In this document: positions 48,519 through 53,917 of the stretch, one piece after another | How positions within the stretch are numbered: the stretch's first letter is position 1 | Layout of the letters: every line of letters begins with the position of its first letter | Assembly: GCF_007970185.1 (NCBI RefSeq) | Contig: NZ_CP042431.1 | Location: 1,178,001 to 1,242,000 of the forward strand | DNA: 64,000 nucleotides | DNA from: Pseudobacter ginsenosidimutans | Lineage (GTDB): Bacteria > Bacteroidota > Bacteroidia > Chitinophagales > Chitinophagaceae | Direction of reading: 5' to 3' | The notes under the pieces: model-generated | Told to the model about the DNA's origin: nothing | What the model saw: the letters and a program-made list of their open reading frames with translations, nothing else | Databases searched by the model: none | Position numbers and translations under genes: made by a program

Positions 48519-49595
48519 TTAAAACAACTTCATTTGTTCGCCGGGCCGGCGGAACTGTGAGCAATCCAGTTCCCATTTTTCTTCATTTAATCCAAAACGT
48601 TTGCACCAGGTTTTGAACTGAAGGTTGATCAGTTCAGCCAGTGGCCCTTCTCCGCGCATGCGCGTACCAAACCGACTATCGTTCACCTGCCCGTTATGTC
48701 CCTGCTCGATGAAATGCCAAACCTTATCGGCCCGGTCGGGATAGTTTTTATAGAGCCAGTCGTGAAACAATAATTTCACAGCGCCATTGAGCCGTACGAA
48801 AGTGTAGGCAGCAAAAACGGCCCCTTCCTCCGATGCTGCTTTCAGGATATTATGCATTTCCTGATCGTTCAGTCCCGGGATCATGGGGCCTAACATAACG
48901 CCCATGCGCACACCGGCATCTGTCAGTTCCCGGATCACGCGCATCCGCTGCCGCGCTGTGGTGGTCCTGGGTTCCATCTTTCGCCGCAGCTCCTCATCGA
49001 ACGTGGTCACTGAAACCAATGCGGAAACAAGGTTTCTGGCAGCGAGCTGCTGCAGCACATCCTTATCGCGCAGGATGCCGGCATTCTTGGTAATGATGCC
49101 CACCGGCTGATTAAACTCCAGGCATATTTCCAGAATGCGCCGGGTCAATCGATATTTTTTTTCTGCTGGCTGATAACAATCGGTATTGCCACTAAGGGAT
49201 ACCGGAACACATTGCCAGCGTGGATTCATGAGGAATTTCCGGAACAACTCAGGTGCATTCTTCTTCACCATGATATTCCTCTCGAAATCCACACCGGCAC
49301 TGTATCCCCAGTATTCAAAGGAGTTGCGGGCATAGCAGTAGATGCAGCCATGCTCGCATCCCTGGTAGGGGTTAATGCTGTACCACATGCCAACGTCAGG
49401 GCTATCTACTTTATTAACCACCCCTTTGGCTTTGTCTTCGAGGTAACGCGTTGCTACATCGGATTCGATCCATTCATCGATTCCCTCGATATGTTCCTTC
49501 ACCCGTGAGTGTTGAAGAAAACGGTTACGCGTATTGATCTGCGCACCCCGGCCTTTGAGATAGGTATCGGGTTTTTGTTCTTCGTGGTTTTCCAT
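48519..49595 (-). CDS. PA0069/Rv2578c-like radical SAM protein
   Basis: 358 aa. The iron-sulfur motif is CEHGCIYC (C-x3-C-x2-C, in NPYQGCEHGCIYCYAR), followed by VPVSLSGNTDCYQPAEKKYRLTR and a TIM-barrel region. This group is related to spore photoproduct lyase-like radical SAM enzymes and its reaction is not settled. It lies 20 bases after a 2H-fold protein gene, in a minus-strand set that diverges from umuD/umuC. Confidence 0.87.
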   Translation of the reverse strand: MENHEEQKPDTYLKGRGAQINTRNRFLQHSRVKEHIEGIDEWIESDVATRYLEDKAKGVVNKVDSPDVGMWYSINPYQGCEHGCIYCYARNSFEYWGYSAGVDFERNIMVKKNAPELFRKFLMNPRWQCVPVSLSGNTDCYQPAEKKYRLTRRILEICLEFNQPVGIITKNAGILRDKDVLQQLAARNLVSALVSVTTFDEELRRKMEPRTTTARQRMRVIRELTDAGVRMGVMLGPMIPGLNDQEMHNILKAASEEGAVFAAYTFVRLNGAVKLLFHDWLYKNYPDRADKVWHFIEQGHNGQVNDSRFGTRMRGEGPLAELINLQFKTWCKRFGLNEEKWELDCSQFRRPGEQMKLF

Positions 49596-49615
49596 GATGT
49601 GTTTCCTTTCTTCAC

Positions 49616-50251
49616 TCAGGCGAAGAGCTCACCCTGCCTGGTATTCACAGGAAGGTTCCTGAACTCGAAACGCTCGGCGATCTGCCAGGCGCGGTCGCCC
49701 GTTCTCCTTTTCAACAATAACATGCCATCTGCCAGGAAGCGGCCGGTGAATTGCCTGTGGGAGTATTCCAGCCAGCCCTGTTCATATTGCCAGGGCTGCA
49801 ACCTGCTGGCGATGGTGATGAAGGGCTCATCAATAAAATGAGGTTTACGGTCCTTATCATATTTCATCAACCTTTGCAATTGCCTGACTTCTTTCACCAG
49901 TCCCTGGATAGGCTGCCTGGTCACCACATTCACATAAATGGAATGGGTAGGGAATGCCCCGTAATTCTTCAGTTCCACCCGGAACGGATGATAGCCATTG
50001 CCTGCGATGCGCAGACGATGCAGGATCTTTTCTTCCATCATCTCCAACTGTGTGAACTTCGCGAGCAGGATATGAGGACGAACAAAATTCGTATATCCGC
50101 CAGGGTAAGTTTCATGAAAGGCTTTCTTCACTGCAAGGATCTTGTTTCTCAGCTCTTCATGAGGCGAAAGCACCAGTTGATATTCATTGGTGCGCAATCC
50201 GCTTTTGTAAAGCGCTCCATAATCAGGTAAGGTGTCAACAAGCTGTTTCAT
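49616..50251 (-). CDS. 2H-phosphoesterase-fold (2'-5' RNA ligase-like) protein with altered motifs
   Basis: 211 aa from the ATG at 50249-50251 (GTG two codons upstream). The two halves of the 2H fold are visible, but the HxT motifs are changed: RPHILLAKF has Leu in place of Thr/Ser, and EPFITIASRL has Phe in place of the second catalytic His. A 2H catalytic mechanism is therefore unlikely as read. Tandem with a second diverged paralogue 31 bases upstream and followed by the radical SAM gene. Confidence 0.75.
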   Translation of the reverse strand: MKQLVDTLPDYGALYKSGLRTNEYQLVLSPHEELRNKILAVKKAFHETYPGGYTNFVRPHILLAKFTQLEMMEEKILHRLRIAGNGYHPFRVELKNYGAFPTHSIYVNVVTRQPIQGLVKEVRQLQRLMKYDKDRKPHFIDEPFITIASRLQPWQYEQGWLEYSHRQFTGRFLADGMLLLKRRTGDRAWQIAERFEFRNLPVNTRQGELFA

Positions 50252-50288
50252 TTGCACGATTTTAAAAAGATAGAAATAAGGATAAGGC

Positions 50289-50912
50289 TCAGGACAATTC
50301 CTGATATAGTTCGTAAGTACCCGGTAAGAACCGGAATACGTTCACTGTTTTATTGGTTGCTTCATAAGGAGAGCTTTTCACCAGCAGGAGATCATTGGCG
50401 AGGAAAGAATGGTGAAATGATCTTCTAGAAAAATCCGGCATGGCCTTCTCATATACCGACTGCGGCAGATGGCCGGCAATGTCCAGGTAAGGCCGCATCA
50501 TCATAATAGGCGGCGGGCAGGCGGAGGAACGGATATAATCTTCCACCGGACGAAGCTGCCTGATCAATTGCTGGATAGGCCATTGGTCCTGTATGCGCAG
50601 GTAAATGGTATGCGGAGGATGACCACTATAATTATTGAGTGTGATCACAAAGCTGCGGTGATTGCTGCAGATCCTTTGTATCCAGCGCATCAGGGTTTCT
50701 TCCATTCCATCCCTCACGGCAAATTTGGCGATGGTGATCTGATGACCTGCGCGTGCCTGCCCCTTCAGTCCATACTTCAATACCAGGTCCTGCTGCTCCA
50801 TCCAAACCTGCTGGCGGACCACATTATCTGCCTGGATCACCAGGCTGTATTCCTGTAACCCTTCTGCCATCCAACCCTTGCCACCACTATGATTGACCGC
50901 TCCTGTGTGCAT
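50289..50912 (-). CDS. 2H-phosphoesterase-fold (2'-5' RNA ligase-like) protein, second diverged copy
   Basis: Up to 207 aa; an internal ATG at 50870 (MAEGLQEYSLVIQ) may be the real start. It aligns end to end with the neighbour at 49616-50251. At the first motif it reads GHQITIAKF, with Gln at the His column and a His one place earlier; at the second, RPYLDIAGHL, with Tyr for His and Asp for Thr. So both motifs are eroded. First gene of the minus-strand set that faces umuD across 72 bases. Confidence 0.72.
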   Translation of the reverse strand: MHTGAVNHSGGKGWMAEGLQEYSLVIQADNVVRQQVWMEQQDLVLKYGLKGQARAGHQITIAKFAVRDGMEETLMRWIQRICSNHRSFVITLNNYSGHPPHTIYLRIQDQWPIQQLIRQLRPVEDYIRSSACPPPIMMMRPYLDIAGHLPQSVYEKAMPDFSRRSFHHSFLANDLLLVKSSPYEATNKTVNVFRFLPGTYELYQELS

Positions 50913-50984
50913 AAAAATACTTTTGTCTGATCATATATTTAGCATAAATTTACTAAATAATTTAGCACAGCCAAATTTAATTAT
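50913..50984. promoter_or_regulatory. Divergent promoter region with TTTAG repeats (umuD side and 2H side)
   Basis: 72 AT-rich bases between divergent genes. Direct repeats TTTAGCA (50938-50944 and 50961-50967) surround an inverted partner CTAAA (50953-50957), giving TTTAG-N10-CTAAA. The layout suits a shared operator, perhaps for damage-responsive control, but no LexA motif is established for this group. Confidence 0.4.
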
Positions 50985-51419
50985 ATGCAGGACGAAATTT
51001 TTTATGATGCCGCTTATAAAGGTTCCAAAGATTACAATCAATGGAATGTGAAGACTGCCGATGCAACAGGCTTCGGAGCGGCCGCGGATGATTATATGGA
51101 GAGAGGGATCGATCTGAATGAACAGCTTATTCACAACAAGCCCGCCACCTTCTTTTTGCGCATGAGAGGCGACGCCATGACCAGTGCAGGGATCCATGAC
51201 GGCGATGTGGTGATCGTGGACAAAAGCCTCAAGGCGCAGAGCGGGAAAGTTGTGATTGCAGTACTGAACGGAGAGATGCTGATCCGCAGACTGGAACGAA
51301 CATTCAACAAAGTTCGGCTGCTGCCGGAGAACAGGCAGTTCGCCAGCACGGAGATCGATCCTTCCTGTGACACACTCGAGATCTGGGGCGTTGTCACCTA
51401 TGTGATCCACCAATTATAA
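50985..51419 (+). CDS. umuD: UmuD-like S24 family protein lacking the Ser-Lys dyad
   Basis: 144 aa, aligned without gaps to E. coli UmuD from the cleavage region to the C-terminus. UmuD Ser60 (GDSM) corresponds to Ala64 (GDAM) and Lys97 corresponds to Arg101 (LIRRL), so both catalytic residues are replaced. The cleavage pair Cys24-Gly25 corresponds to Thr28-Gly29. The fold motifs (AGIHDGDVVIVDKS, LEIWGVVTYV) are intact. It precedes the UmuC-type polymerase gene and probably acts as a polymerase accessory that cannot self-cleave (inference). Confidence 0.88.
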   Translation: MQDEIFYDAAYKGSKDYNQWNVKTADATGFGAAADDYMERGIDLNEQLIHNKPATFFLRMRGDAMTSAGIHDGDVVIVDKSLKAQSGKVVIAVLNGEMLIRRLERTFNKVRLLPENRQFASTEIDPSCDTLEIWGVVTYVIHQL

Positions 51420-51553: not shown

Positions 51554-52882
51554 ATGAGAACAGCAGCAGCACCTGATCTTTTCACCGCCATTCCGGGTTC
51601 CTACGGAATGAAAGCGATCGTGGACTGCAACAGTTTTTACTGTTCCTGCGAAAGACTGTTCCGACCGGACCTCCGGAACAAGCCCGTAGTAGTGCTCAGC
51701 AACAATGATGGCTGTATTGTTTCGCGAAGTGATGAAGCCAAAAAGTTCGGGGTGAAAATGGCAGGTCCGTATTTTGAAGCAAGGCCACTGATCCGCCAGT
51801 TCGGGATCACAGCCTTCTCTTCCAATTACAACCTGTATGGCGACCTGAGCTGGCGCGTGATGGAAACATTGCGTATGCTGGTTCCCTCGGTGGAAGTATA
51901 CTCGGTGGATGAGGCCTTCATTGACCTCAGTCATGTACCATACGATCAACTGGAACAAACAGCAATGCACATACGTAAAACAGTAGAACAATGGACAGGA
52001 ATATCCGTTTCGATAGGGGTAGCGCCAACAAAAACGCTGGCCAAACTGGCCAATTATATAGCGAAGAAAGACAAGCAGGCTTCGCAATGTGTAACCGTAA
52101 CTGCCACCAGGGAGGAGCAGCTCAGGATGCTGCAGTCTACCAGGGTGGAGAATATCTGGGGCGTAGGGTGGGCCTACGCGGAAAAACTCATCAACCAGGG
52201 GATTATCAGTGCCTGGGACCTGAGCAATATGCCCGAAGAATGGGCTCACCGGCACCTGGGTGGTGTGAATGGCGTTCGACTGATCCGCGAACTCAATGGC
52301 ATCCCCGGGAAAGAGATGGCAGCGCCCCTGACCAGCAAGAAAATGATCGCTACTACCCGTATGTTTGGGCAACCCGTAACGGAACTGAATGATGTTCGGG
52401 AAGCCATCGCCACCTACACTTCAAGGGCAGCAGAGAAATTACGCAGGCAGCACAGCGCCGCCAAAACCATCAGCATCTTTCTCGTTACCCGCGAAGAAAA
52501 TCATATGACCAGTTTCAAACGGGGCGCAACCCTGCATTCTCATATCACACTTCCTTCCGCTACCGCTGTTACGCAGGAGCTGATCAAAGCAGCCGTGCAA
52601 CAGGCAGAACAATTGTTCAGAAAAGGAAAAGTGTACAAGAAAGCAGGTGTGATGCTCAGCAATATCGTGCCGGATGATTCTATCCAGGGCAATCTCTTCT
52701 CCCCTCCTTCGGGTAATGAATACCGTTACCTGATGGATGTGATAGACAATGTGAACTTCAGTATGCGCGATGATGTATTGAAGTTTGCCGTTACAGGCAC
52801 GACGCGCGACTGGAAGATGCGGCAGGAGTTGCGGAGCAAACGCCATACCACCCGATGGGAAGAGTTATATGAAGTGAAATAG
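51554..52882 (+). CDS. umuC: Y-family DNA polymerase V catalytic subunit (UmuC-like)
   Basis: 442 aa from the ATG at 51554; a second ATG at 51608 (MKAIVDCNSFYCSCERLF) fits the usual UmuC N-terminus better. Palm-domain acidic motifs are present: VDCNSFYCSCE, LSNNDGCIVSRSDEAK and YSVDEAFIDLS; helix-hairpin-helix and little-finger regions follow. Error-prone translesion synthesis. It lies 134 bases after the umuD-like gene. Confidence 0.93.
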   Translation: MRTAAAPDLFTAIPGSYGMKAIVDCNSFYCSCERLFRPDLRNKPVVVLSNNDGCIVSRSDEAKKFGVKMAGPYFEARPLIRQFGITAFSSNYNLYGDLSWRVMETLRMLVPSVEVYSVDEAFIDLSHVPYDQLEQTAMHIRKTVEQWTGISVSIGVAPTKTLAKLANYIAKKDKQASQCVTVTATREEQLRMLQSTRVENIWGVGWAYAEKLINQGIISAWDLSNMPEEWAHRHLGGVNGVRLIRELNGIPGKEMAAPLTSKKMIATTRMFGQPVTELNDVREAIATYTSRAAEKLRRQHSAAKTISIFLVTREENHMTSFKRGATLHSHITLPSATAVTQELIKAAVQQAEQLFRKGKVYKKAGVMLSNIVPDDSIQGNLFSPPSGNEYRYLMDVIDNVNFSMRDDVLKFAVTGTTRDWKMRQELRSKRHTTRWEELYEVK

Positions 52883-52890
52883 TAGCATCG

Positions 52891-53811
52891 TCAAAACATA
52901 CTTATCTGAGAACTACCGGGAGCAGGCTGTATGAATTGTGGCTTCGGAATATGAAGCCCGCTTACAGCCTCCATCCTTCCGGCAAAATATTCCACCATCT
53001 CCGGCGCCATGATCTCTTCCGGCGTATGCATGAAGAACCAGATCTCTTCCAGACCCTGATCCAGCCATCGTTTCAGCCTGTCGGCCCATCTATCCAATCG
53101 AACCGGATCCGTCGGCCCCATACCATGCCCCACATAACGGATGAATGTTTTTGGTAAAGTCAGCTCCATATGCGCACAATCCCTCCTGCCGGATGTATCG
53201 GTGATCACAGCGCCGATCTTCATTTCACGCAATGTATCAAAGAGATGTTTTTTCGGCGCGCCGGTTAGCCAGTCCGGGTGGCGCACTTCCAGGAAGAAGG
53301 TTAGATCAGTAGGCAGAGACTTCAAATAATTGAACAGCTTTTGCTGATTAGCGGGAGAATGTTTTTCGCTCAATTGTAGAAAGATGGGGCCAAGATGCTC
53401 ACCAAAAGCCAGGATACCGCGGAGAAAAGAATCGGTGGGCTCATCTACGTTATTGAAGCCGCTGTAATGACTGATCAGTTGTGGCACTTTCGGACAGAAC
53501 ATGAAATCCCGGCCTTCCGCTTTCGCGGCCCATTTGGCAATGGTTTCCTCGCCGTAGATCTGATAATGCGTTGCGTTGAACTCGATACAATTGAAATGCT
53601 TCACATATTCATCCAGGAAATCCACTTCTTTTGTTCCCTTCGGATAGATCTTATTGATCCATTGTTTGGGCCCACGGGTGGCGCATCCCACATAGAGCAA
53701 CGGCTTCGGAGCCGGCTTACCGGGCAGGACAAGCGCATTCCCGGGAGGATCGGGAGGAAGGCTGAAATCAATGCTATTCACTTCATTTTCAGGAACTTTG
53801 CCAAAATGCAT
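52891..53811 (-). CDS. DUF72 (YecE-like) protein
   Basis: 306 aa from the ATG at 53809-53811; a TTG-started form adds seven residues. TIM-barrel DUF72 motifs: LLYVGCATRGPKQWINKIYPKGTKEVDFLDEYVKHFNCIEFNATHYQ-like N-terminus and YVGHGM near the end. YecE-family function is not settled. It is convergent with umuC, 8 bases apart, and shares the neighbourhood of repair-type genes. Confidence 0.85.
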   Translation of the reverse strand: MHFGKVPENEVNSIDFSLPPDPPGNALVLPGKPAPKPLLYVGCATRGPKQWINKIYPKGTKEVDFLDEYVKHFNCIEFNATHYQIYGEETIAKWAAKAEGRDFMFCPKVPQLISHYSGFNNVDEPTDSFLRGILAFGEHLGPIFLQLSEKHSPANQQKLFNYLKSLPTDLTFFLEVRHPDWLTGAPKKHLFDTLREMKIGAVITDTSGRRDCAHMELTLPKTFIRYVGHGMGPTDPVRLDRWADRLKRWLDQGLEEIWFFMHTPEEIMAPEMVEYFAGRMEAVSGLHIPKPQFIQPAPGSSQISMF

Positions 53812-53917
53812 AGACCATGTTTTCGTTTGCAAAACTAGTAAAACCGGTCATTCCAGATTTTTTTTCTGAATTTTAAAATATCCTGTCGCCAGGCCCGTCT
53901 ACCTTTCTATACAAAGC

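Follow-up and report, generated by a model that had tools for sequence, protein, structure and literature searches.

How can Pol V be activated in a bacterium whose UmuD appears unable to cleave itself? Self-cleavage of UmuD to UmuD′ is, in the textbook view, the second lock on mutagenic Pol V, and the umuDC locus discussed here, which lies in a 64,000-nucleotide stretch of the Pseudobacter ginsenosidimutans genome (the window), encodes a UmuD homolog in which both catalytic residues are replaced.

The window umuD gene and its relatives

The umuD-like gene (bp 50,985–51,419, + strand) is an intact open reading frame for a protein of 144 amino acids. In phmmer searches of solved structures its residues 28–142 match E. 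coli UmuD (8gmt_B, E 8.6e-23) and residues 29–141 match UmuD′ (1umu_A, E 5.8e-23), and it scores 88.8 bits with the Pfam Peptidase_S24 model and 133.7 bits with the NCBIfam UmuD model NF007621 (cutoff 110). Its AlphaFold2 model (alignment depth 54 sequences, whole-model mean pLDDT 65.8) has a UmuD-like core (residues 52–144, pLDDT block means 69–86), and Foldseek ranks UmuD 8gmt and UmuD′ 1ay9 highest among its matches. An S24/LexA-type core homologous to UmuD is therefore present by profiles, phmmer, and Foldseek alike, and the prediction agrees with the sequence-only reading that the rest of the UmuD fold is kept. The arm region (residues 1–51, pLDDT below 50) is predicted to be disordered, and its position is not fixed in this monomer model. 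Neither Pfam nor NCBIfam gave a match to an HTH domain; the N-terminus is a 28-residue arm only (bp 50,985–51,068, + strand), unlike UmuDAb-type regulators, which have an added N-terminal DNA-binding domain.

In the phmmer alignment, codon 64 (GCC, bp 51,174–51,176) puts Ala at the position of catalytic Ser60, codon 101 (CGC, bp 51,285–51,287) puts Arg at that of catalytic Lys97, and Thr28-Gly29 (bp 51,066–51,071; all on the + strand) is the counterpart of the UmuD scissile pair Cys24-Gly25. Both the Ser-Lys dyad of the self-cleaving S24 peptidases (UmuD, LexA, and CI) and their Ala-Gly/Cys-Gly scissile bond are thus absent. The sequence-only reading had named these three replacements, and codons and alignment bear them out, as they do its description of an intact umuD next to a complete umuC; it was wrong in calling the alignment to UmuD gap-free, since it has gaps near query residues 106 and 127, and the two proteins are unlike in their arms.

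Among 394 genomes of the same family, 239 have a match at E 0.001 (45 weaker ones among them were searched again), not all of them to the Ala/Arg form. The 188 distinct sequences, which include the window's own, have at residues 64/101 Ala/Arg (133), Ser/Arg (13), Thr/Arg (2), Cys/Arg (1), or Ser/Lys (39), so that 149 carry Arg101. In the 140 that are more than 55% identical to the query, a set picked by its Arg101 (100%), residue 64 is Ala in 91% and Ser in 9%; still, no sequence with Lys exceeded that identity. The "long-arm" set used for the umuC and codon counts differs slightly, with 140 members if L142, a row from a family of another class (f24, see below), is included and 139 if it is not; it omits eight own-family rows that are arm-altered or diverged and one born-truncated row. 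All four Ala codons occur at position 64 and all six Arg codons at position 101 in the 139 long-arm sequences. Since both replacements recur across the clade, they are not due to chance, and the alignment of Chitinophagaceae homologs that the sequence-only reading had proposed indicates that Ala/Arg is conserved as a clade. Judged from these sequences, loss of the dyad is a stable, conserved trait of a Chitinophagaceae clade and not damage to one gene. Sister copies with an intact dyad, beside which this copy alone would be changed, were looked for; five same-genus sisters were found, the nearest three at 92–99% identity, and all are Ala/Arg. For three close relatives dN/dS is 0.031, 0.055, and 0.088 over the whole gene and 0, 0.133, and 0.093 over the arm alone; in three more distant pairs silent sites are saturated, and dN/dS over core or whole gene is not estimable.

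Named carriers include Pseudoflavitalea, Niastella, Paraflavitalea, Puia, Terrimonas, Sediminibacterium, and Agriterribacter, and one carrier record, a metagenome bin, is titled Sphingobacterium thalpophilum. When 395 genomes from across the phylum were sampled, the own family alone gave matches with E < 1e-40. In a UmuC tree, for which 164 near-full UmuCs were reduced by similarity to 136 and then to 92 plus that of E. coli (with long-arm Ala/Arg rows taken at random), the 48 own-family long-arm rows form a single group (SH-aLRT 100).

The substrate side of the reaction is altered in the same sequences. The cut site reads AGFPSPA in 39 of 39 Ser/Lys relatives, all of which have Ala at P1 and Val, Ile, or Leu at P3; P8 is Leu, Phe, or Ile, and P9 is Pro in 92%. 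In the 140 long-arm sequences P1 is Thr28 in 96%, Gly29 follows in 99% (Thr28-Gly29-Phe30 is 96–99% conserved), P3 is Asn or Asp in 99%, P8 is Asp or Glu in 73%, P9 Pro is not conserved, and the residues after the site are mostly GFGAAA. The arm has a conserved motif of its own, Y-x-G-[ST]-K-x-[FY]-x-Q (Y11 96%, G13 99%, S/T14, K15 95%, F/Y17, Q19 99%; n = 140), followed in the same position table by a conserved TANAT, and its length from Met to the residue before G29 is exactly 28 in 118 of 139 long-arm sequences. Enzyme and substrate features have, by this comparison, been lost together, and the arm has been remodeled and retained. Because the dyad is gone, Thr-Gly stands in place of Cys-Gly, and the arm is different, no self-cleavage is expected; the earlier claim that the protein should not self-cleave is thereby strengthened, with the catalytic pair lost clade-wide (Lys in 0 of 140, Ser kept in 9%) in parallel with the substrate features, and loss of self-cleavage is well supported at the sequence level.

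SOS box, gene neighborhood, and the UmuC partner

An SOS operator upstream of the window umuD is present as a predicted box, CTAAATAATTTAG (CTAA-N5-TTAG, bp 50,953–50,965), in the 72-nt divergent intergenic region; CTAA-N5-TTAG is reported as the SOS motif of Chitinophagaceae and other families, also upstream of umuDC (PMC8565304). The same source describes a Ser-Lys dyad and Ala-Gly in Bacteroidota repressors, and its available text does not discuss the dyad of UmuD. Chance predicts 0.69 such sites per 64 kb, so a single site is not rare by itself. Of the 137 long-arm loci with enough flank (from the 140 Arg101 sequences above 55% identity, of 149), 135 have a box at most 200 nt upstream, with a mononucleotide-shuffle mean of 0.94. 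It is also present in 8 of 37 Ser/Lys loci from several families and in all ten of a further group of own-family Ser/Lys loci (L240–L249); the box is not special to the long-arm, dyad-less form.

The whole P. ginsenosidimutans genome has 24 CTAA-N5-TTAG sites versus 143 for a reversed control pattern. Boxes precede recA and two further genes, one dnaE-like and one rarA/mgsA-like; judged by position, a LexA-like HTH-S24 gene has one as well. The remainder lie within open reading frames or ahead of genes without an evident repair role. The dnaE (DNA polymerase III alpha)-like gene has two boxes in front of it (L257, C1:3125114–3125150) and is possibly a second SOS mutagenesis enzyme. There are only two S24 proteins (PF00717) in this genome, UmuD and the HTH repressor. 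By eye, the LexA-like repressor keeps GDSM, the VYKRV lysine, and Ala-Gly, so that of the two proteins only UmuD has lost the S24 cleavage residues.

The divergent gene that shares the intergenic region (bp 50,289–50,912, − strand) has a weak match to the 2′-5′ RNA ligase (2H) superfamily (PF13563, 19.5 bits, cutoff 27); beyond it lie a second gene of that superfamily (bp 49,616–50,257, − strand; PF13563, 43.5 bits) and one for a PA0069-family radical SAM protein (bp 48,519–49,595, − strand; NF033668, 482 bits), and a DUF72 gene (bp 52,891–53,832) is convergent to umuC. DUF72 genes have been noted adjoining another translesion polymerase (PMC11791011). Of 80 loci, 63 have a full flank (6.3 kb or more). 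Among these, 59 match the nearer ligase-like query and 50 the second one, with cross-matching between these two queries; 54 have umuC, 52 the radical SAM gene, and 20 DUF72. The divergent ligase-like gene is present at 73 of 78 long-arm loci versus 0 of 19 own-family Ser/Lys loci (78 of 139 and 19 of 31, respectively, were used), and the SOS-boxed divergon of bp 48,519–50,984, with its radical SAM and two 2H genes opposite umuDC, is thus linked to the long-arm UmuD clade and not to the Ser/Lys copies. A phage or mobile origin of the window umuD is not supported, as the gene neighborhood is conserved; the matches to the query in 64 phage records are all below 60% identity, and each spans less than 80% of it.

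The gene for the Pol V catalytic subunit, umuC (bp 51,554–52,882, + strand; its start is possibly Met19, bp 51,608), lies downstream of umuD in 122 of 140 long-arm loci and was not found within the available flank in the other 18. Two active-site Asp columns (D24 and D119 in the window UmuC) are invariant in 112 long-arm, 10 f24, and 47 Ser/Lys-paired UmuCs. The C-terminal tails look alike by inspection in the sampled rows, and in sequence the tail of the window-clade UmuC resembles that with which E. coli UmuC binds UmuD′; in the Pol V model the UmuC tail binds UmuD′, and the N-terminal end of UmuD′ is near the UmuC active site (PMC11791011).

Possible modes of action of the dyad-less UmuD

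We favor, with a probability of roughly 0.6, the reading that the UmuD working with Chitinophagaceae Pol V stays full-length permanently, with its arm released, and that nothing but SOS transcription gates the polymerase. A self-cleaving switch would here have been converted into a permanently full-length accessory subunit of Pol V. By analogy with the engineered E. coli UmuD-3A (T14A L17A F18A), which is full-length and non-cleavable, has its arms released from the core, and is considered a mimic of UmuD′ (PMC5342242), the arm would no longer be clamped onto the core and, because of that, could be free to engage UmuC, so that full-length UmuD might serve UmuC directly. In that case Pol V would need no further activation after its synthesis, and SOS derepression by the LexA-like repressor would be what controls it. 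That the full-length form is active is something we infer. In E. coli, non-cleavable S60A UmuD greatly lowers UV mutagenesis (PMC5342242, PMC3901139), and therefore activity of a full-length form should need compensating changes, which are likewise presumed; the altered arm and UmuC of this clade are offered as the reason why it may differ from E. coli S60A. Of the three options in the sequence-only reading, the one with the most support is that of a permanently full-length partner; a scaffold or inhibitor role and processing by another protease keep, as far as sequence goes, the lesser likelihoods given below.

It is unlikely, if by no means fanciful, that full-length UmuD is a brake or checkpoint, like E. 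coli UmuD2C, with UmuC kept non-mutagenic and mutagenesis left to a different polymerase, for instance the DnaE-type enzyme with SOS boxes. Such an arrangement has its precedent in the restraint of UmuC by full-length UmuD in E. coli (PMC3901139) and a candidate second enzyme in the dnaE-like gene with two SOS boxes, but this umuC keeps both active-site Asp columns checked, in the arm, positions neighboring the core-holding residues of E. coli UmuD are replaced, and a pure brake would have no need of an SOS-boxed operon with an intact polymerase.

We regard as rather improbable, and a little more so than a brake, that some other protease, be it the LexA-like S24 repressor acting in trans, a ClpP-type protease, or Lon, cuts the arm at or near Thr28-Gly29 to give a UmuD′ form. 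The P1 Ala and the P3 Val, Ile, or Leu of all 39 Ser/Lys relatives are gone, even though Thr28-Gly29-Phe30 is itself strongly conserved, and the arm is conserved as though it were needed, not discarded. In E. coli a second UmuD protomer is able to cleave the S60A arm in trans (PMC5342242), and the one other PF00717 protein of this genome does keep, by eye, Ser, Lys, and Ala-Gly, but it is an HTH repressor. Finally, a decaying or mis-sequenced gene, of which loss of catalytic residues could be the first appearance, can be set aside almost entirely in the face of 133 distinct Ala/Arg sequences, low dN/dS, and the same residues in the three nearest sisters.

Recurrence in Bacteroidota and comparison with known systems

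Dyad-less UmuD-like proteins recur in f24, from which 45 genomes were picked out of the phylum-wide sample; all 28 of the other loci read from outside the own family are Ser/Lys. In the f24 rows L142, L270–L278, and L289–L309, none of the 30 intact copies read is Ser/Lys: residues 64/101 are Ala/Arg in 20, Gly/Arg in 4, Ser/Cys in 2, and Glu/Arg, Asp/Cys, Gly/Cys, and Asn/Cys in one each, residue 101 of the most diverged rows being alignment-dependent. The rest of the 45 genomes comprise two with broken copies, seven with weak matches in LexA-size frames, and six with no match. TACACAT-type repeats can be seen by eye in f24 promoters, e.g., TACACATATTTTATACATA in L142, and a stricter repeat pattern is present in 3 of 16 further f24 promoters; because these repeats resemble the reported Balneolaeota LexA motif, TTACACATATTTTWTACATA (PMC7739468), f24 is probably Balneolaceae. 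The AU test does not reject a single origin for the dyad-less UmuDs of the own family and those of f24 (p 0.57 for UmuC and 0.549 for UmuD core columns), and the tree in which the two are held together scored slightly higher in both tests.

Other own-family copies lack the arm altogether. The second copies (n = 20) comprise ten that are Ser/Lys, one that is broken, and nine (L231–L239) that start M-GFPSP or M-AFPSP; with L111, which starts M-LFPSP, these make ten that are UmuD′ by gene structure. All ten have Arg101 (7 Ser/Arg, 2 Ala/Arg, and 1 Asn/Arg), umuC lies directly downstream of nine, and the six included in the UmuC tree are nested in Ser/Lys lineages with at least three origins. Six genomes of genus g71 have a born-truncated copy in addition to a long-arm one.

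UmuC itself differs at the position that is Ser252 in E. coli, which we take to be Met270 of the window UmuC: Met occupies it in 99% of the 112 long-arm UmuCs, in 10 of 10 from f24, and in 0 of 47 beside a Ser/Lys UmuD. The UmuCs that accompany nine born-truncated Arg copies have Gly (6) or Ser (3) there. Of 15 further f24 UmuCs, 11 have Met, each next to an Ala/Arg or Glu/Arg UmuD, and the four with Ser sit beside other dyad-less UmuDs. Met252 therefore does not simply track loss of cleavage; the pattern is suggestive of co-adaptation with arm-bearing Arg forms of UmuD, with shared ancestry within each clade still contained in these counts.

Taken broadly, and at a little less than even odds, UmuD self-cleavage may have been abandoned repeatedly in Bacteroidota as the means of Pol V activation: a Chitinophagaceae clade and a Balneolaceae-like family would each have a permanently full-length, dyad-less UmuD whose remodeled arm is a built-in UmuC-engaging peptide, with UmuC often co-adapted (Met252) and control purely transcriptional, and other copies would be genetically truncated UmuD′. 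If that is true, RecA-driven UmuD cleavage is dispensable for Pol V. A large clade that has an SOS box and umuC but has lost the lock in enzyme and substrate alike could serve as a natural experiment on the purpose of cleavage and on the UmuD-UmuC contacts that let an uncut arm coexist with polymerase activity. No description of a natural dyad-less UmuD was found in the available text of open-licence PMC papers.

The window protein resembles E. coli UmuD/UmuD′ in its S24 fold, adjacent umuC, upstream SOS box, and similar arm and core length, and differs in having no Ser-Lys dyad, Thr-Gly for Cys-Gly, and a different arm. With the born-truncated own-family UmuD′ proteins it shares Arg for Lys97 and independence from self-cleavage. 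Phage HumD is a UmuD′ homolog, and its NCBIfam model gives the window protein 68.7 bits, below the cutoff of 120; HumD and the born-truncated proteins are without the arm, whereas the window protein retains and conserves it. The small subunits YqjX/YolD of Gram-positive Y-family polymerases, an evolutionarily distinct family from UmuD (PMC6511836), can be set beside it by description: their N-terminal arm is modeled inside the polymerase, with no mention of proteolysis in the accessible text (PMC12926913). The engineered UmuD-3A is likewise full-length, and residues that hold the arm are changed in both (PMC5342242), but the form in the window is natural and clade-wide, and in it the dyad itself has also been lost.
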